Positions 4,194 to 54,727 of a stretch of 60,516 nt of DNA are shown piece after piece. How positions within the stretch are numbered: the stretch's first letter is position 1; each line of letters opens with the position of its first letter. Below the pieces are notes generated by a model. That model had not been told where the DNA came from. It was given only the letters and a program-made list of their open reading frames with translations, and ran no database searches. The stretch is from Syntrophomonadaceae bacterium. Its GTDB lineage: Bacteria > Bacillota > PH28-bin88. The position numbers were made by a program, and so were the translations under genes. The stretch spans positions 1 through 60,516 of the forward strand of contig JAGXSE010000003.1 in the NCBI GenBank assembly GCA_018333865.1, in the 5' to 3' direction.

Positions 4194-4230
4194 AAACAAC
4201 ACCTCTTTGCTACATTAATCCAAAACTGGT

Positions 4231-4325
4231 AATGTGTCAAGAACCCCGTCCCCTTGACCTCCCAGTAATGTGTCAAGAACCCCGTCCCCTTGACCTCCCA
4301 AGAACCCCGTCCCCTTGACCTCCCC
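4231..4325 (-). repeat. REP-like repeats, right flank, three tandem copies
   Basis: Two ~35-base copies beginning AATGTGTCAAGAACCCCG and a third lacking its first part stand head to tail. They are the inverse of the copy at 3695-3740. The right edge coincides with the point where VapC similarity ends. Confidence 0.85.
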
Positions 4326-10687: not shown

Positions 10688-12571
10688 ATGGAAACAAGAA
10701 AACTGCAAGGGTTATGGAAGCCTGCATTTCGCTGGATGGCAATTGCCTTTTCCCTGGTATTTTTATATTCGGCGGGGATTGGTCTGGTAGCCACTGAGGT
10801 TACCAGGGGCATGTATATCATGTTTAACCTGCTTTTATGCTTTATGCTTTATCCCTTGGCGCGCGGCAAGGGCGGAGGGAATAAGGTTCCCTTTTATGAC
10901 ATCGTTTTAATTGCACTTACTGTAATCGTGTGTGGTTACTGGATACTGGAGTTCAGGGAATATAACAGCGTCCGCATTGGTTTCCCAACATTTTGGGACA
11001 CTTTTTTTGGCTGGATAGCGATAGTACTAGTTTTTGAGGCTACCAGGAGGGTAATGGGCAATGTTCTGCTAGCTGTGGGCCTGGTCTTTTTCTTGCAGCT
11101 TTTATTTGGGCCTTACCTCCCTGGTGTCTTGGCCCACAGGGGTTTCAGCATTGATCGGATTGTTGAGTTTAACTACAGCACCATGGAGGGGATCTTTGGG
11201 CTGATTACCCATACCTTTGCCGTATTTGTTTTGCCTTTTATTATTTTAGGCGCCTTTTTCGAGAAATCCGGAGCCGGCACATTTTTTATCAGACTGGCCT
11301 TGTCATTAACCCGGGGTTGGGTTGGCGGGCCGGCGAAGGTAGCCGTTCTTGCCAGCGCCCTCTTTGGGTCGATCAGCGGCAGTTCGGTGGCAAACGTTGT
11401 AGCAACAGGAGCTTTTACCATCCCCATGATGAAACGGGTCGGCTTTAGGCCTCATACGGCAGGGGCGATAGAGGCGGCGGCCTCTACCGGCGGGCAGTTC
11501 CTTCCGCCGGTAATGGGGGCAGGCGCCTTCCTTTTGGCTACACTGACGGAAACATCTTACGCCAAAATTGCGTTAATGAGCATAATTCCTGCCTTGCTCT
11601 ATTTTTACTGGGTTGGCTGCGCGGTGCATTTCGAGGCCAAGCGTTATAATGTGGGCAATTTGCCTGATGATGAAATCCCCACTTTTAAAGAAACCATGAA
11701 AGAGGGCTGGGTATTTTTTATTCCTCTGGCCATAATAGCGGTCTTTTTAATTCTGGGTTATTCACCGGCCCTGGCTGCCTTTTGGGCCATCATCGCCTGT
11801 ATAGTATTGAGCTGGGCCAGAAAAGAAACCAGGATGGGATTTACTGATATTTTAGATGCCCTGGAACTAGGAGGCAAACAAAACGTATCCGTAGGTGCTG
11901 TTATCGGCATGTTGGGCATTATTATGGGAGGTATTGTCCTGGCAGGGCTGGGGACTAAGTTTGGTGAACTAGTGGTCTCTCTTTCAGGCGGAATCCTCTT
12001 TTTCAGCATCTTCTTAACCGGAATTGTCGGGATCTTCATCGGGATGGGAGCCACCCAAACAGCGACCTATCTTCTTTTATCCTTAATTGTCGTCCCGGGA
12101 CTGGTAGTGTTTGGAGTAGACCCTGTCATTGCTCATCTGGTTGCTTTCTGGTTTTCCGGCCTTTCCAATGTAACGCCGCCGGTGTGTGTTTCAGCCTATG
12201 CCGGCGCGGCTATTGCCAAGGCCGACCCGATGCAGACAGGATGGGCCGGGGTCAAGTACAGCCTGATGATCTTTATCTTGCCCTTTACATTTATTTACTT
12301 CCCGGAAATCTTATTAAAAGGAGACAGCCTTTGGCAGACTGTGTTTTTTGTGGCGGGCCTGTTGATTGCCATGCCGGCTTTTGCAGCAGGGCTGCAGGGA
12401 TATTTTATTAAAAACCTGAACATCGTCGAGCGAGTGTTGATGATGGCTGCGGGAATTGCCCTTTTTGTCCCTGAGTTTATCACCAGCATATCAGGACTGT
12501 TGATTATTGCCCTGGTCTATCTTAAACAGCGAAGGGAAAAGGGGATGGACAACAACATCACACCTGCCTAA
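10688..12571 (+). CDS. TRAP transporter permease, fused small and large subunits (DctQM type)
   Basis: 627 residues and about 16-18 membrane segments. The first four helices correspond to DctQ; the rest is DctM, with GGPAKVAVLASALFGSISGS, VVATGAFTIPMMKRVGF and AASTGGQFLPPVMGAGAF, the hallmark of TAXI-linked fused permeases. It imports the ligand brought by the preceding receptor using a sodium gradient. ATG 10688 has AAGGAG eleven bases upstream. A dehydrogenase follows 42 bases later in the same operon. Confidence 0.92.
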   Translation: METRKLQGLWKPAFRWMAIAFSLVFLYSAGIGLVATEVTRGMYIMFNLLLCFMLYPLARGKGGGNKVPFYDIVLIALTVIVCGYWILEFREYNSVRIGFPTFWDTFFGWIAIVLVFEATRRVMGNVLLAVGLVFFLQLLFGPYLPGVLAHRGFSIDRIVEFNYSTMEGIFGLITHTFAVFVLPFIILGAFFEKSGAGTFFIRLALSLTRGWVGGPAKVAVLASALFGSISGSSVANVVATGAFTIPMMKRVGFRPHTAGAIEAAASTGGQFLPPVMGAGAFLLATLTETSYAKIALMSIIPALLYFYWVGCAVHFEAKRYNVGNLPDDEIPTFKETMKEGWVFFIPLAIIAVFLILGYSPALAAFWAIIACIVLSWARKETRMGFTDILDALELGGKQNVSVGAVIGMLGIIMGGIVLAGLGTKFGELVVSLSGGILFFSIFLTGIVGIFIGMGATQTATYLLLSLIVVPGLVVFGVDPVIAHLVAFWFSGLSNVTPPVCVSAYAGAAIAKADPMQTGWAGVKYSLMIFILPFTFIYFPEILLKGDSLWQTVFFVAGLLIAMPAFAAGLQGYFIKNLNIVERVLMMAAGIALFVPEFITSISGLLIIALVYLKQRREKGMDNNITPA

Positions 12572-25926: not shown

Positions 25927-27969
25927 ATGGGCGCAAACAATGGTGCCACAGGTTCGGGAGGACAGGCGAAAATAGAGCATGTCCAAAAACTGAACCTTGA
26001 TATGGAAGATGTTGAAATATCTTCACAACGCAAACTATCCGGCAATTTAGCCAAATTCATCACCATCTGGGCTGTAATCGTCGCCGCATTGCATATCTAT
26101 AGCATGGTTTTTTATCCGGTGGACCCCTGGAAGTACCGCAGCTTCCATGTAGCCAGCCTGTCGTTTTTAGGTTTTCTCCTTTTCCCGGGCTGGCAAAAAG
26201 CCGGATCCAGGGTGCATTGGAGCGATTGGGTTTTTGCTGTTGCCAGCATGGCAGTCTTTGGCTATATAGTATACCACCATAGCGAACTGATCTTTCGTAT
26301 CGGCATCATGCCCACAACGGCGGATTATATCATTGCTGTTACCGGAATCATCCTGGTGTTGGAGCTAACCCGCCGTACAGCCGGAATGGCGCTGCCTATA
26401 CTGGTTGGCGTTTTTTTGCTGTACACCTTTATCGGTCCCTACCTGCCGGGAATTATGCATAACCGGAGTTATGCCCCGGAGCGGATGTTCACCTTTATCT
26501 ACAGCCAGGATGGGGTCTTCAGCATTCCGGTGGATATCAGTTCCACCTTCCTCATCATGTTCATCATTTTTGCCTCATTTCTGCAAGTTTCCGGGGTAGG
26601 TAAATATTTTGTGGAATGGGCCTTTTCCATCAGCGGCCATTTGCGGGGCGGGCCGGCCAAGGTGGCGGTCTTATCCAGCGCCTTGATGGGGACGATGAGC
26701 GGCACCTCGGTCGGCAATGTGGTGGCTACCGGCAGTTTTACCATTCCTCTGATGCGCAAAGTTGGCTACTCTCCTCAGTTTGCTGCGGCCACCGAAGCTG
26801 TGGCTTCGACCGGTGGGCAGATTATGCCGCCGATCATGGGCGCAGGTGTCTTTATCATGGCTGAGCTGACGGGAATACCCTACTCCCGGCTGATGCTGGC
26901 CGGGATTATTCCTGCAGTATTGTACTTTGCCTCCTGTTACATGATGGTGGACCTGGAGGCAATCAAGCAAAGGCTGCATGGCATTCCGCGACATCTGCTG
27001 CCGGGACTAAAAGAAGTAATGTCTCGTAGCTATATGTTTCTACCTGTATTAGTTCTGTTTGGGATGCTATTATTTGGTTTTTCCGTTGTTATGGCCGGGT
27101 TTTGGGCCATTATCAGCGCATTTTTAATCAGCTGGACCAGCAAGAAAACCCGCATGGGCCTTAAGGACATCATGAAGGCCCTAGAGGGGGGAGCCCGGGG
27201 TACCATTCAGATGATGGCTGTCTGCGCCTCTGCCGGCATTATCGTGGGAGTTATCGCCCTGACCGGCGTTGGGTTGAGGTTTTCCTCAGTAATCTTAGGT
27301 ATTGCAGGGGAAAGCACCTTCTTGGCCCTGCTCTTTACCATGGGTATTGTTATTATCTTGGGGATGGGGATGCCTACCACTGCCGCTTATGCGGTTGCAG
27401 CGGCTGTTGTAGCTCCCGGTTTAATAGGGATAGGCATTGAGCCATTGATGGCCCACTTCTTTATTTTTTATTTCGCCTGCGTTTCAGCCATTACACCGCC
27501 TGTAGCCCTGGCGGCCTATGCCGGGGCGGCTATCAGCGGCTCGGAGCCGATGAAAACCGGCTATACCGCCTTTCGCCTTGGAATTGCAGCCTACATTGTG
27601 CCCTTTATGTTTTATTATGCCCCGGAAATTTTAATGAGTGGTTCCCCAACGGTGATCATTCTTCGGACAGTCACAGCCCTGGTTGGCATCTATGCTCTGG
27701 CTACTGCCGTGCAGGGGTATTTCTTCGGGCATACTCCGCTAATAATTAGGGCGCTTTTGTTAGTGGCAAGTTATGGTCTGGTAACCCCCAACGAGTTATT
27801 AGATATTATAGGATTGGCTCTCTTGTTGGTATTGTTCATAGTCCAGCGAGCAATCCGCAAAACTGAAGATACCGATGAGGCATCTTCTGACGAGCTTAAG
27901 TCGACCAGGCAGCATACGTCCTCCTTTAAGGGGATCGGAAAGTCTGGAAAAGCAAAAACCCATGTCTAA
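25927..27969 (+). CDS. TRAP transporter permease, fused small and large subunits, second copy
   Basis: 680 residues. A charged cytoplasmic start of ~45 residues is followed by the DctQ-like four helices and the DctM part with GGPAKVAVLSSALMGTMSGT, VVATGSFTIPLMRKVGY and STGGQIMPPIMGAGVF. It resembles the permease at 10688 closely in layout but has a longer hydrophilic N-terminus and a charged C-terminal tail. Here the permease precedes its receptor, the reverse of the first cluster. Confidence 0.92.
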   Translation: MGANNGATGSGGQAKIEHVQKLNLDMEDVEISSQRKLSGNLAKFITIWAVIVAALHIYSMVFYPVDPWKYRSFHVASLSFLGFLLFPGWQKAGSRVHWSDWVFAVASMAVFGYIVYHHSELIFRIGIMPTTADYIIAVTGIILVLELTRRTAGMALPILVGVFLLYTFIGPYLPGIMHNRSYAPERMFTFIYSQDGVFSIPVDISSTFLIMFIIFASFLQVSGVGKYFVEWAFSISGHLRGGPAKVAVLSSALMGTMSGTSVGNVVATGSFTIPLMRKVGYSPQFAAATEAVASTGGQIMPPIMGAGVFIMAELTGIPYSRLMLAGIIPAVLYFASCYMMVDLEAIKQRLHGIPRHLLPGLKEVMSRSYMFLPVLVLFGMLLFGFSVVMAGFWAIISAFLISWTSKKTRMGLKDIMKALEGGARGTIQMMAVCASAGIIVGVIALTGVGLRFSSVILGIAGESTFLALLFTMGIVIILGMGMPTTAAYAVAAAVVAPGLIGIGIEPLMAHFFIFYFACVSAITPPVALAAYAGAAISGSEPMKTGYTAFRLGIAAYIVPFMFYYAPEILMSGSPTVIILRTVTALVGIYALATAVQGYFFGHTPLIIRALLLVASYGLVTPNELLDIIGLALLLVLFIVQRAIRKTEDTDEASSDELKSTRQHTSSFKGIGKSGKAKTHV

Positions 27970-31984: not shown

Positions 31985-32510
31985 AAGAGTTGATAGCAAC
32001 TATAGGTTTCCGCTAATAGTACCCTGGCAAAGCCCCCAAAGCTTTAGCCAACAATCCTCAAGCTTTATTTCTGCAATAGAACAGTACCTAACTCAATGGT
32101 GACTGTTCTTCCAAACCGCAGTTGCTGCTTAAAGCGCTGCCGCCTCCCATGAGGTAAATTTTATTTTTTTGCCTTCTCAATTAAACAATCAATTTACTAT
32201 AATTAAAAATTGCGTTTTGAAGCTGGATTTAACTTTTTCGGCTATTGTGGAAGTCAAAAGAAATACAGCTTATATATATTTAGTGAATGTGAATACAAGA
32301 ACAAGTAGTATATGATATATTTGGCAAATAATGAAAAAATCAAGGGCAAAAACGTGGAGGACAATAACCAGAAGGAGGGATAACAAAATAAGATTTATTC
32401 GTTGAACTCAGGGGACTATCCGGATTTTCACCTAGTGCGAAAGGGGCTATCGTCAAGTAAGGAACTGGATTGGGTGTTATCTTTGCCTATAAGTGAGTGA
32501 GGTGAAAGCA
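31985..32510 (+). other. Long A/T-rich leader without a gene, before the TctA-TctB fusion
   Basis: No coding sequence was found. Visible elements are GTTG-ATAG-CAAC near 31992, AGAACAGT/ACTGTTCT (32078-32085 and 32102-32109) with a 16-base loop, and a ribosome binding site-like AGAAGGAGG near 32371 that is not followed by a sensible ORF. Confidence 0.4.
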
Positions 32511-34532
32511 TTGCTTGAGTACATCCTGCTAGGGTTTGTAAACCTTTTCAACCTTGAGCTGATCATGCTGATTATTCTCGGCCTTGCAGGCGGGATTATT
32601 ATCGGTGCCCTGCCAGGTTTCAGTCCAACCATGGGGGTAGCGTTGCTAGTTCCGTTTACCTTTTTCATGTCTCCAATTGAAGGGCTGTCCACTCTTTCCG
32701 CTGTATATGCGGGAGCTGTTTATGGCGGGTCTATCTCCGCCGTCTTGATAAATATCCCTGGTGCGCCGGCCAATGTGGCCACCCTTTTTGACGGATACCC
32801 GATGGCCCAAAAAGGAGAAGGAAGAAAAGCTTTATTGGCTTCGCTGATCGCGTCTGTAAGCGGCGGGCTGATAAGTGCCGTGGCCTTGATTTTCATTGCG
32901 CCGCTATTGGCGGTGATCGCATTAAAATTTGGGTCGCCCGAAAAATTTTGGATGGCTGTTTTCGGCTTGGTGATTATCTCCAGCCTGGGAACCGGAAGAG
33001 AATTGATCAAGGGTCTCCTGAGTGGTGCTTTTGGAGTATGGCTGGGAATTATCGGTACTTCCCCGATTACTGGTGAACCACGGTTTACCTTTGGCTTGGG
33101 GGAACTGTGGGGTGGTATCAGTGTGGTACCGGCACTGGTTGGGCTGTTTGCATTTTCCCAGGCACTGGTCTATTTCGAGCGAATAATGCAGCGAACAGGA
33201 CCTGCGGAAGTGATTGAGGTAAAGAAAGAAAAAGGGGACATCTGGAGGCTGGTGAAAGAGTTTTTTACCAAATACAGGAATTTGACCCTTTACACAGGTG
33301 TCTTGGGTACAGTGATCGGAATTATCCCGGGAGCAGGAGGTCAGGTGGGAGGGGTTGTGGCTTATGATCAAGCCAAGCGCTTTTCAAAGAAAAGCGACCA
33401 GTTTGGCACAGGTGTGGTCGAAGGTGTCATTGCTCCGGAGACTGCCAATAACGCAACGGTTGGGGGAGCGATAATTCCGCTGCTCACGCTGGGGATCCCT
33501 GGTAGCCCTACCGCTGCCGTTCTTTTGGGTGGCTTGCTGATCCACGGTCTGTGGCCCGGCCCGCTGTTATTTACTGATAACGCCGCAATTACATACACAT
33601 TTATGGTGGCCTTTCTGTTTGCCCAGGTGGCTATGTTTTTTGTGGCCTTGCCCATGTTGACCCAAGCGGTTCATATCGTCAGGGTTTCTGACTACTATCT
33701 TGGTCCTGCCGTGGTGGCCTTGTGTATTTTTGGCGCCTTTGCGGTTAATAACAATTTTTTTGACGTGTATGTGATGATCGCATTAGGAATTGTCGGCTAT
33801 TTATTTATCAAGACCGGGATCTCATTGGCCCCGGCCATCTTGGGGATAGTTCTGGGACCGATTGCGGAGCTAAATTTTATGCTGGCGCTTCGGGTCGGGA
33901 CAGCCAAAGGAGACCTTATGGGTTATTTATTCACCCGCCCGATTAGCGTGGCCATCCTCCTCCTAATTCTGGTAGTGTTGGTTAGTACGGTATTAATGGA
34001 AATTAAACGTTACAAGAAGACGCGGGAAACAGTGCCAGATGCGGTTCTGGGCAAAAGTGAAAATGCAACTCGGAACACAGCCAGAGGGCTCTGGTCTCTA
34101 GATGCAGTGATGGGGATAATTATAATTTTTGCCAGTATTTTGATCTGGCAGCTTTATCTGGCAAGGCTCTCCAGCGAAACCGGCCTCTTTCCAATTGCTG
34201 TTTTTATTGTTGTAGGTCTTATTGGTCTTGTCCAGGCAGGATATGGGATCTTTGTTTACAGTGATAGAGTCAAGTGGATACCCTGGCGGGTTGTTATTGA
34301 GGTTACTGCGGCAACAGTCGTGGCGGTTTTGGCAGCAAATACACTCGGATTATTTACAGTGACCTTCCTGTTGTGTACATATGTTGGTATCCGGATGGTT
34401 TCGCTCAGCGGCAATCAAATAAGGGGCTATGCTGCCAAGATCCTGGTATATAACATCGCTGCCATAGCATTTCTTTATGTTTGTTTTAAGGTATTGTTAC
34501 AGCTGCCAACGCCTCAGGGTTTATTTTTCTAA
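32511..34532 (+). CDS. Tripartite tricarboxylate transporter, TctA-TctB fusion
   Basis: About 673 residues. Residues 1-500 are TctA: GALPGFSPTMGVALLVPFTF, GAPANVATLFDGYPMAQKG and GIIPGAGGQVGGVVAYDQAK with LTLGIPGSPTAAVLLGGLL. A hydrophilic linker near 500-525 leads to a TctB-like unit of four to five helices (SSETGLFPIAVFIVVGLIG). TctA and TctB are normally separate proteins. TTG 32511 is preferred to GTG 32493 because GAGGTGA precedes it. With TctC it forms a secondary carboxylate importer. Confidence 0.88.
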   Translation: MLEYILLGFVNLFNLELIMLIILGLAGGIIIGALPGFSPTMGVALLVPFTFFMSPIEGLSTLSAVYAGAVYGGSISAVLINIPGAPANVATLFDGYPMAQKGEGRKALLASLIASVSGGLISAVALIFIAPLLAVIALKFGSPEKFWMAVFGLVIISSLGTGRELIKGLLSGAFGVWLGIIGTSPITGEPRFTFGLGELWGGISVVPALVGLFAFSQALVYFERIMQRTGPAEVIEVKKEKGDIWRLVKEFFTKYRNLTLYTGVLGTVIGIIPGAGGQVGGVVAYDQAKRFSKKSDQFGTGVVEGVIAPETANNATVGGAIIPLLTLGIPGSPTAAVLLGGLLIHGLWPGPLLFTDNAAITYTFMVAFLFAQVAMFFVALPMLTQAVHIVRVSDYYLGPAVVALCIFGAFAVNNNFFDVYVMIALGIVGYLFIKTGISLAPAILGIVLGPIAELNFMLALRVGTAKGDLMGYLFTRPISVAILLLILVVLVSTVLMEIKRYKKTRETVPDAVLGKSENATRNTARGLWSLDAVMGIIIIFASILIWQLYLARLSSETGLFPIAVFIVVGLIGLVQAGYGIFVYSDRVKWIPWRVVIEVTAATVVAVLAANTLGLFTVTFLLCTYVGIRMVSLSGNQIRGYAAKILVYNIAAIAFLYVCFKVLLQLPTPQGLFF

Positions 34533-34674
34533 GTAGGATTGTTTTTTTAGGTCTGAAAAAAATGTTAAGAGGGGGTGTTTTTTAGGGCAGGCAGGAGCCC
34601 TCCTGGTATATAAAAAGTTAGTCTTCTGTCATTGCAACCAGAATTTACTAAAAATCGAAGAGGAGTGAGGCCAA

Positions 34675-35934
34675 GTGTACAAAAGGAACTATAAGCTAAT
34701 CCTGGCTTTAATTGTCATGGTAGTGATGGTAAGTGTGGCCCTAATCGGCTGTGGTGCCGAGCAGGCTGCCCAACAACCTGCGCCAGCACCTGCGCCTGCC
34801 CCAACTCCGGCACCGAAACCTGCGCCGGCACCTGCACCGGCACCTGCGCCAGCACCGGCACCTGCGCCAGCACCAGCACCTGCGCCTGCGCCAGCACCTG
34901 CACCTGCGCCGGTACCTGCGCCAACGCCTGCACCGAAACCTGCTCCTGTCCCGGCACCGACTCCAACTCCGGTGCCGAAACCGGCTCCAGCGCCTGCACC
35001 GGCACCTGCGCCAACCCCGGCACCGGCTAAGACTGTTTCCTTCCCGGTAAGGCCGGTGCAATGTATTGTTTCCTTTAGCGCCGGAGCAGCGACAGACGTT
35101 CAGGTGCGCCCGTTAACGAAATATTTCCAGCAAGAATTCGGCCAACCCCTGGTTATTGTGAACATGGCCGGCGCCGGCGGAACCACTGGCTGGAATCATT
35201 TTGTCGCGCAAAGAGCCGATGGATATAACCTTACTGCGTACAACCTTCCCCATATTATCGGCAAATCAATGACAGAAGACACCAGGTATTTCTGGGACGA
35301 CTTTGTCCCTGTGGCCCACTGGGGTTTTGACCCGGTTACTTTAGGCGTACACCCCCAGAGCAATTTCAGGTCGGTAGCTGATGTGGTTGCAGCGGCAAAG
35401 GCAAAACCTGGCAGCTTAACTGTAGGAACAGCCGGGATCTATTCTGGCCATCATTTTGCCATGCTGCAGCTGCAAAAAGATGCTGGAATCAGGTTAACAA
35501 TGTTGCCTTTCCCAGGTGCAGCCGATGCCCAGGCTGCAATTTTAGGCAATCAAATTGACCTGAATCTTGGCAACTTATCTGACATGTACCGGCTCGGCGA
35601 CAGAATCAGAGTCTTGGCTGTCGCATCGGAAAGTCGGCACCCATTGCTACCGAATGTGCCTACCTTTAAAGAACTCGGTTACCGCAGTGTAGTTATGAGC
35701 ACCGACCGGGGTCTTGCGGTGCAAAAGGGCACCCCCAAAGAGGTAATCGAAATCCTTGAGCGAGGGCTATTAAAAATATTGCGGAGTCCGGAGTATCAAG
35801 AAGACATGAAGAAGCTGGGAGCTCCTCTGATGATTATGGGTCATGCGGAAGCAAAGGAGCATATTGAAAGATATGCTATCGAAATTGAACAGATACTGCG
35901 GGATATTGGCGTGACCGTAAGGAGAAGGAATTAA
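34675..35934 (+). CDS. TctC (Bug-family) solute-binding lipoprotein with an 84-residue Ala-Pro linker
   Basis: 419 residues from GTG 34675. Lipobox LIGC (Cys 26), an Ala-Pro linker of about residues 35-118, then the Bug fold: PVRPVQCIVSFSAGAATDVQ, VIVNMAGAGGTTGWN, a long PGSLTVGTAGIYSGHHFA loop and LPNVPTFKELGY. These loops bind a carboxylate through backbone NH groups and water. It serves the TctA-TctB permease 142 bases upstream. The linker resembles those of two unrelated TAXI receptors in this window. Confidence 0.9.
   Translation: MYKRNYKLILALIVMVVMVSVALIGCGAEQAAQQPAPAPAPAPTPAPKPAPAPAPAPAPAPAPAPAPAPAPAPAPAPAPVPAPTPAPKPAPVPAPTPTPVPKPAPAPAPAPAPTPAPAKTVSFPVRPVQCIVSFSAGAATDVQVRPLTKYFQQEFGQPLVIVNMAGAGGTTGWNHFVAQRADGYNLTAYNLPHIIGKSMTEDTRYFWDDFVPVAHWGFDPVTLGVHPQSNFRSVADVVAAAKAKPGSLTVGTAGIYSGHHFAMLQLQKDAGIRLTMLPFPGAADAQAAILGNQIDLNLGNLSDMYRLGDRIRVLAVASESRHPLLPNVPTFKELGYRSVVMSTDRGLAVQKGTPKEVIEILERGLLKILRSPEYQEDMKKLGAPLMIMGHAEAKEHIERYAIEIEQILRDIGVTVRRRN
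34777..35028 (+). repeat. Minisatellite coding for the third Ala-Pro linker
   Basis: 252 bases of six-base Ala-Pro units (GCACCT, GCGCCA, GCACCG). Lys and Val codons interrupt at intervals (TPAPKPAP, PAPVPAP). Confidence 0.85.
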
Positions 35935-36419
35935 TCATAGACAGCTACCCGCTCTAATACCCCCGCTTCTAAGGAAAGGGGACACACCTGCTGAAGCTCG
36001 GGCCTGTCTTTGGGGACAGGAATGTCCCCAATTAAAGCGGTGGTATAAGAGCGGTTACGCTGCTATATTAACTGGCTCTAAGCTTCAGTGGGGGTAACAA
36101 TCCCCCCTCTGAAGCCAAGACCCAGTTGAATAGAAAATTGATGGAGATTGTTTGTTTTCTCGCTATTTGGCTTCTGGGGCTAGACACCCTGGTCTAACCC
36201 CAGAAGCCCCAATCTCAAATCCCCTATGACAGAACGGCCACAGGATTGCTAGCAATTTGCTTTTGCGCAATAACTATTGATTGAGGACATTCCCTTAATC
36301 TGGATTCCTTACGGAATGAATGTTTTGCATTGCCATTTTACGTGGAAGGGAGGGGTCTACCTGGGAAACCCTGATGTATTTTAACTGAAATCCAAACAAG
36401 AATGAAAGGAGAAAAGGTA
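35935..36419 (+). other. Structured leader region before the korABC-sucCD operon
   Basis: No gene. CCTGTC (36003-36008) can pair with GACAGG (36015-36020), while the overlapping GGGGACA (36012-36018) can pair with TGTCCCC (36023-36029): the two are mutually exclusive. GCTTCAG/CTGAAGC (36082-36115) encloses a G5/C5 stem. GGCTTCTGGGG...CCCCAGAAGCC (36169-36208), extended by TAGAC/GTCTA inside and GAGATTG/CAATCTC outside, is very stable. No T run follows any stem. Confidence 0.5.
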
Positions 36420-53626: not shown

Positions 53627-54727
53627 ATGAAGAAACTATTGGTTTTAATACTAGTGTTGCTGTTAGCTGCAAGTATTTTTGCAGCAACGGGCTGCGGACA
53701 GAAACCTCAACCAGCGGAAGCGCCAAAAACTGAACCGGCGAAACAAGAGTATGGACCTCCGGCGACAGTAACTACGTGGAGATTTCAACCAATCTTTCAA
53801 CCCACCGATGCTGGTTGGAATAATGGTGTAGTTCCATGGGCAAGGGCTGTAGAAGAAGCTACCAAAGGAACAGTAAAGATCGAACTGCTTCCTGGCGGCT
53901 CGATAACCAGTGCTGCGGAAGCATTTAGAGCTACCATGGCTGGCATGATTGACGTATATGCCGGCTGGGCAACTGTGTATGGCGGAGACATGCCCGAAGG
54001 CATGCTGGCTTATGGAATAGCAATGGGGGCAGAAAATCACCGTGATGCATGGGCAGCCATGTGGGGCGACCCTAAATACCGTATCGGTGAGCTTGTTCAG
54101 ACAGCAGCCAATGAACGCAACCTGCACTGGGTGGGATGGAGCAGCCAGGGACCCAATGTTGCGCTTACCAATTTCCCAGTGAGGCGGCTTGAAGATTTTG
54201 CCGGCCGCAAAATGAGAGCCGGCGCTCCTCAGGCAATATTCCATAAAGCATTAGGTGGTACCCCTGTGGTTGTGCCGGGAGCGGAAATATACATGGCAAT
54301 TAAGTTGGGTACTATTGAAGGAACTTACTGGGATGCAGGAGGAAGTGCTACCATGAAGTTTCATGAGGTTACGGATTATATGATCTTGCCGGGATGGTGT
54401 CCTGCTCAGCATCAGGAAATATATGTTAATTTGGACAGATGGAAAGCATTAAATCAATGGCAGCGGGATCGTATCAGCGAAATCTTTATGCCTGTTTATT
54501 TTGAAACCAGCAGATTGCATTTAGCAAATTTAGCGAAGTCTAAAGAGATTTTTGTTAATGAAGGCAAGGGTCAGATCCTGAATTTGCCAAGTTCGGAAGT
54601 GGAACGGTTGCGCAAAATAGTAAGAGAACAGGTATGGCCTCAAGTTGCAGCACAATCGCCGCGCAATGCCAAGGGAGTGGAGTTGTGGACCCAATTCCTC
54701 GTGGATATAGGAACACTTAAAAACTAA
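53627..54727 (+). CDS. dctP: TRAP solute-binding lipoprotein
   Basis: 366 residues. Lipobox ATGC (Cys 23), then a short charged linker (PQPAEAPKTEPAKQEYG) instead of the Ala-Pro tracts seen in the other three receptors. The DctP fold shows FRATMAGMIDVYAGWAT and EDFAGRKMRAGAPQAIFHKA, the latter holding the Arg that binds the acid group. Its position in the taurine operon points to taurine or another sulfonate. Confidence 0.9.
   Translation: MKKLLVLILVLLLAASIFAATGCGQKPQPAEAPKTEPAKQEYGPPATVTTWRFQPIFQPTDAGWNNGVVPWARAVEEATKGTVKIELLPGGSITSAAEAFRATMAGMIDVYAGWATVYGGDMPEGMLAYGIAMGAENHRDAWAAMWGDPKYRIGELVQTAANERNLHWVGWSSQGPNVALTNFPVRRLEDFAGRKMRAGAPQAIFHKALGGTPVVVPGAEIYMAIKLGTIEGTYWDAGGSATMKFHEVTDYMILPGWCPAQHQEIYVNLDRWKALNQWQRDRISEIFMPVYFETSRLHLANLAKSKEIFVNEGKGQILNLPSSEVERLRKIVREQVWPQVAAQSPRNAKGVELWTQFLVDIGTLKN

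Follow-up and report, generated by a model that had tools for sequence, protein, structure and literature searches.

The Neisseria lipoproteins Lip and Laz (the H.8 antigens) have little in common beyond an AAEAP-rich N-terminal domain (PMC9239064). BP0403 of Bordetella, a TAXI lipoprotein, is extended at its N terminus, which has been proposed to give it freedom of movement (PMC12344293); this extension is globular and helical and belongs to a Gram-negative periplasm (PMC12344293), in contrast to the disordered Ala-Pro chain described here. TAXI receptors are described as having no sequence relationship to DctP receptors and as being lipoproteins more often (PMC12344293). Linkers of the same (AP)n chemistry as those reported here are found in biotin carrier protein and similar multidomain proteins, but these are mostly cytoplasmic interdomain arms, neither the leash of a lipid anchor nor part of a leader cassette. 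No paper on TTT receptors with Ala-Pro linkers turned up in a literature search.

The stretch of DNA that we analyzed (the window; 60,516 nucleotides) encodes a TctC/Bug receptor, L006, at 34675-35934 on the forward strand, with a GTG start that follows the Shine-Dalgarno sequence GAGGAG (34660-34665, forward strand) by nine bases. The product consists, in order, of a 25-residue signal peptide, Cys26, the residues GAEQAAQQ, an Ala-Pro tract, and the TctC core. Read from the sequence, the n-region VYKRNYK, a hydrophobic stretch, and ALIGC26 predict a Sec/SPII lipoprotein; the signal peptide and lipobox (VYKRNYKLILALIVMVVMVSVALIGC; 34675-34752, forward strand) are the leader part of the cassette discussed below. 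The preliminary description placed an 84-residue Ala-Pro tract on a TctC/Bug receptor at 34777-35028 (forward strand), which the translation and the Pfam assignment confirm: the tract (P35-A118) lies between the lipobox Cys and the folded core and is almost pure Ala-Pro, with sparse Thr, Lys, and Val. The DNA pattern for (AP)4 has 35 matches in the window and none in 100 dinucleotide shuffles. The core (35035-35931, forward strand) matches PF03401 with an E value of 3e-33 (115.9 bits vs. a gathering cut-off of 27), and its closest solved structures in a phmmer search are 4x9t (E 2e-35) and BugD, 2f5x (E 1e-34). AlphaFold2 predicts the core with confidence from about residue 121 (pLDDT mostly above 90), whereas residues 24-120 have low pLDDT and no secondary structure.

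Directly upstream of the receptor gene lies tctA (32493-34532, forward strand), encoding the large membrane subunit of the tripartite tricarboxylate transporter (PF01970, E 4e-142, residues 24-450); the hydrophobic sequence of its C-terminal ~230 residues suggests a fused TctB. With a PF03401 match above the cut-off and an adjoining TctA, L006 is a TctC/Bug member of the TTT family. Two long minus-strand open reading frames opposite the tract (34715-35023 and 34741-35061) lack Pfam matches and look like shadow ORFs. Promoter and terminator scans gave scores no better than those of shuffles. A near-palindrome, GGGGACAGGAATGTCCCC, is present in one copy in the window, 3' of the receptor gene at 36012-36029. 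Elsewhere in the window, at 4229-4324, a 36-bp and an overlapping 25-bp sequence are perfectly duplicated in tandem (GTCAAGAACCCCGTCCCCTTGACC), with no relation to the linkers.

Family searches of the source genome (G000; 3.2 Mb in 71 contigs) found 9 TctC, 10 TAXI, and 11 DctP receptors. Long Ala-Pro linkers are carried by 15 receptors: six TctC, eight TAXI, and a divergent TctC-like protein (L085, contig C39) that adjoins TctA and falls below the Pfam cut-off. The distance from Cys to core in these 15 is 89-124 residues (mean 106.6, SD 11.6), as opposed to 22 residues or fewer in every other receptor examined. Nearly all matches to the (AP)6 DNA pattern in the genome fall inside the 15 genes (121 of 122; 47/47 on the forward strand and 74/75 on the reverse). 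Two of the linkered TAXI receptors are encoded in the window, as the preliminary description correctly stated: L019 (9275-10609, forward strand), with a 119-residue linker and its DctM next at 10688-12571, and L017 (28014-29330, forward strand), with a 99-residue linker and its DctM upstream at 25927-27969. The statement that the DctP receptor at 53627-54727 (forward strand) lacks the linker, so that the trait is not universal in the organism, also holds; Pfam and linker measurement make this receptor a control, and none of the 11 DctP receptors in the genome has a long linker (Fisher p 7e-5). The DctP receptors also have lipobox-like leaders; anchoring alone therefore does not account for the restriction of the linker to the other families. 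Short APAPAP stretches are already present on L005 (TctC) and L020 (DctP).

In loci of 12-14 kb, TctA is found beside the linkered TctC genes and DctM beside the TAXI genes, with the exception of L015. This TAXI receptor, linkered and 80% identical to L016, is encoded in locus L092 (G000:C9:129000-143000); DctM was not found within 14 kb, and L015 may be an orphan receptor. Two adjacent DctP receptors, L021 and L024 (G000:C66:28815-31237), have cores that are 85% identical and are a recent tandem duplication; neither has an Ala-Pro linker.

The history of the linker is most visible in the DNA of the leaders, which we compared between pairs of receptors over 28 codons anchored at the lipobox Cys. 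Identity over all pairs averages 0.42 (SD 0.075). The leader of the TctC receptor L004, however, is identical at 0.85 and 0.86 to those of the TAXI receptors L015 and L016, and in the sister genus G001 the leader of the TAXI receptor L083 is identical at 0.94 to that of an ABC peptide receptor (SBP_bac_5, L084); the cores of these pairs give no BLAST hit at E<=10. The TAXI receptor L014 and the TctC-like L085 have leaders identical at 0.67 and cores with only a meaningless BLAST match (E 2.1 over 19 residues). Most codon differences between the leaders of L004 and L015 are synonymous (8 vs. 4 others), which excludes convergence of the signal peptides. Of the 89 cross-family pairs with a linker on both members, 5 exceed a leader identity of 0.6; none of the 284 other pairs does (p 7e-4). 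The pairs are not fully independent, given that L015 and L016 are paralogues and the G001 pairs recur. An assembly artefact is ruled out: the common leaders differ by about 15%, are located on different contigs, and show the same pattern in a second genome. The preliminary description held that TctC and TAXI linkers are not common by descent; for several pairs this is wrong, since the DNA of leader plus linker is homologous across families.

The boundaries of the homology indicate what moved. On the 5' side, leader identity falls sharply to background at the Shine-Dalgarno sequence or the ATG, and the 5' flanks are not in common; on the 3' side, homology fades inside the linker. The alignment of L006 with the TctC receptor L008 reaches background level just upstream of the Shine-Dalgarno sequence at 34660-34665. 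The unit transferred in these cases comprises the start codon, usually the Shine-Dalgarno sequence, the signal peptide, the lipobox, and the start of the linker, and is larger than the minisatellite. Of the two origins that had been offered, convergence or transfer of the linker-coding minisatellite, transfer is upheld, but not with the bare minisatellite as its unit. Leader and core histories are also uncoupled within families. L006 and L008 have leaders with 81% DNA identity over the 28 codons and cores with 31% amino acid identity; the best paralogue of the L006 core in the genome is L003, the leader of which is unrelated to that of L006; and the TAXI receptors L014 and L019 have leaders at 71% and cores at 28%. 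Many leaders are mutually unrelated, and several, that of L006 included, have no close cross-family partner. Judged from sequence, the cross-family proof of a cassette is provided by L004/L015/L016 and L083/L084 and not by L006.

The class of the source organism is represented in our sample by three genomes: its own, G001, and G002. G001 encodes three linkered receptors: the TAXI receptor L083, which is the orthologue of L017 (core 63%), the TctC-like L051, the core of which is 66% identical to that of L085, and the SBP_bac_5 receptor L084. The leaders of orthologous cores in G000 and G001 are at background identity (37-48%), which is weak evidence because signal peptides diverge fast. No linkers were found in G002, a complete genome of the same family. 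The nearest relatives of the L006 core in the sample, in G007 and G053 (core 48-49%, whole alignment 46 and 43%), adjoin TctA and have few residues between lipobox and core. The linker is a clean insertion in the alignment with these orthologues, and its absence from TctA-adjoining orthologues indicates a lineage-specific insertion. As far as can be read from these sequences, the linker is unnecessary for TctC function in general. Orthologues with short linkers in close relatives had been named in advance as evidence against portability; such orthologues do exist in distant relatives (46-49%, with TctA adjoining), and portability is not refuted by them.

Among 398 genomes of the phylum, the source genome has 122 (AP)6 matches and the next genome has 29, in one tract. 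The 28 (AP)6 loci that we read in other genomes are mostly in BCCP, FliN/CheC-like, or wall proteins or in non-genic frames; the sole receptor-like lipoprotein with a short AP stretch among them is in G021, a genome from another family of the phylum. This protein, L117, is NMT1-like and has the short Ala-Pro stretch after the lipobox; a TctC receptor of the same genome, L045, has a short A/P/K/E-rich stretch in this position. These stretches are possibly an independent early case. A survey of TctC receptors in 199 genomes found no other long Ala-Pro linker among the readable long open frames. The TctC frames over 410 residues that we read elsewhere in the phylum proved to be chance upstream open frames, except in G010 and G094; a frame of 479 residues on G090:C15 is a partial match. 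In G010 and G094, the lipobox of the TctC lipoproteins L038 and L173 is followed by a Gly/Ala-rich stretch ~40 residues long, which puts a spacer of another chemistry in the place of the Ala-Pro linker. Of the TAXI receptors among the best matches listed, those of G204 and G113 were checked and have no linker.

The linkers are nearly uncharged and lack aromatic residues, with 0-1 Ser and 2-18 Thr each. Third-base autocorrelation in the L006 linker peaks at lags of 6, 8, 14, and 22 codons, and the tract has tandem periodicities of 18 and 42 bp; the L019 linker peaks at multiples of 6 codons, and the others show little. The pattern reveals tandem duplication within linkers; together with the common leaders, it implies that both copying and local turnover of repeats are at work. 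Third-position C is avoided in the linkers of L002-L019 and L085 (Pro CCC 4% vs. 26% in cores; Ala GCC 16% vs. 38%), which perhaps limits slipping C-runs.

The Omp85/BamA domain PF01103 was not found in G000, G001, or G002, although control searches detect it in diderms, so the cell is probably monoderm. The absence of Omp85 rules out a spacer for outer-membrane sorting, and the receptor does not qualify as an outer-membrane lipoprotein of a diderm. The suggestion that linker use might track the S-layer fares no better, given that each of the three genomes of the class encodes SLH proteins; G002, with SLH proteins and without linkers, rules out the S-layer as a sufficient cause. A polyproline II helix extends 0.31 nm per residue. 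At this rise, the linkers have a computed contour length of 26-38 nm, and their root-mean-square extension comes to about 7-20 nm, depending on stiffness. A review gives 15-30 nm for the outer wall zone of monoderms (PMC5817068). We infer that the tract is a flexible uncharged leash that tethers the receptor to the membrane of a cell with one membrane and SLH proteins; the receptor may be surface-exposed or its leash may span the cell wall, and display of the receptor outside the wall is possible.

We think it likely that the tract is a leash, part of an N-terminal cassette that was copied onto unrelated secondary-transport receptors and was followed by tandem duplications in the linker. The lineage would place a start codon, usually a Shine-Dalgarno sequence, a Sec/SPII leader, a lipobox, and an Ala-Pro linker on unrelated receptors, with copying between receptor genes by a gene conversion-like process or ectopic recombination. 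The 3' junction would arise by recombination inside the repetitive linker, which would then change by tandem duplication. The long, uncharged, polyproline II-like leash would let the lipid-anchored binding domain roam the space over the membrane without losing its ability to dock with its own TctA or DctM. Points against this reading include that orthologues work without the linker and that G002, from the same family, has none. The principal alternative to copying is convergence, in which a short APAP seed after the lipobox of each receptor was extended through slippage or unequal exchange under common selection for a long spacer. The seeds on L005 and L020, the short AP stretches on the TctC receptor and NMT1-like lipoprotein of G021, the tandem duplication within linkers, and the many mutually unrelated leaders all fit this account, but leaders and linker starts with 85-94% DNA identity on dissimilar cores, breaking at the start codon, do not. 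For L004/L015/L016 and L083/L084, leader identity refutes it; for L006 in relation to the TAXI members it does not, and where the leader lacks a close cross-family partner, as here, the linker may have grown independently from a short seed. Taken as a whole, we consider convergence rather unlikely.

Other readings concern what the repeat is for. A repeat that is chiefly a recombination hub, by which cores are swapped onto an expressed leader and uptake specificity is diversified, would explain the uncoupling of leader and core in L006/L008 and L014/L019; cores nevertheless stay linked to the TctA or DctM that matches them and 5' flanks are not in common, which implies that the leader moves and not the expression site, and we regard such a hub as improbable. 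A main role of the linker in carrying O-glycans, as in the Ala/Pro-rich low-complexity regions of Neisseria lipoproteins, seems very improbable: such regions are O-glycosylated in other bacteria (PMC9239064) and the linkers contain Thr, but the described O-OTases use Ser, which is nearly absent here, and Thr number is not conserved. Functionless, neutral minisatellite expansion would account for the 18- and 42-bp periodicity but not for the limitation to TctC and TAXI genes, the narrow length class, the in-frame uncharged A/P composition maintained although third bases vary, or the retention of the linker on two orthologous cores in the sister genus, and it is hardly credible. Beyond the copied leash, we put forward more tentatively, and as something short of probable, a lineage-wide adaptor: a standard anchor-plus-leash cassette on TTT and TAXI-type receptors, newly acquired ones included, that spreads by recombination between non-homologous genes and gives many transporters and receptor families one envelope spacing.

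The portable module proposed in the preliminary description is sustained insofar as it is N-terminal, crosses families, and is absent from DctP receptors; its scope is wider than had been noted, with 15 receptors across the genome. The system is a clear natural case in which signal peptide and tether travelled together as one module between families without sequence similarity, so that a receptor's anchor and its binding domain have separate histories. The linkered TctC and TAXI receptors, together with the linkerless DctP receptors, orthologues, and G002, provide a matched set for asking how tether length affects binding-protein-dependent secondary transport when the cell has only one membrane.

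Neisseria Lip and Laz are the nearest precedent and work alike: otherwise unrelated lipoproteins have a highly conserved Ala/Pro-rich pentapeptide-repeat domain beside the lipid anchor (PMC9239064). In Neisseria, the AAEAP repeat contains Glu and Ser and is found on two proteins of a Gram-negative organism, whereas here 15 transport receptors from two families, or three if the sister genus is counted, carry a nearly uncharged (AP)n chain. AAEAP does not occur in the L006 linker and occurs once in that of L017, so L006 is not an H.8 (Lip/Laz) member. The present case is the broader one, with three receptor families, two genera, and an exchange of leaders that is recorded in DNA.
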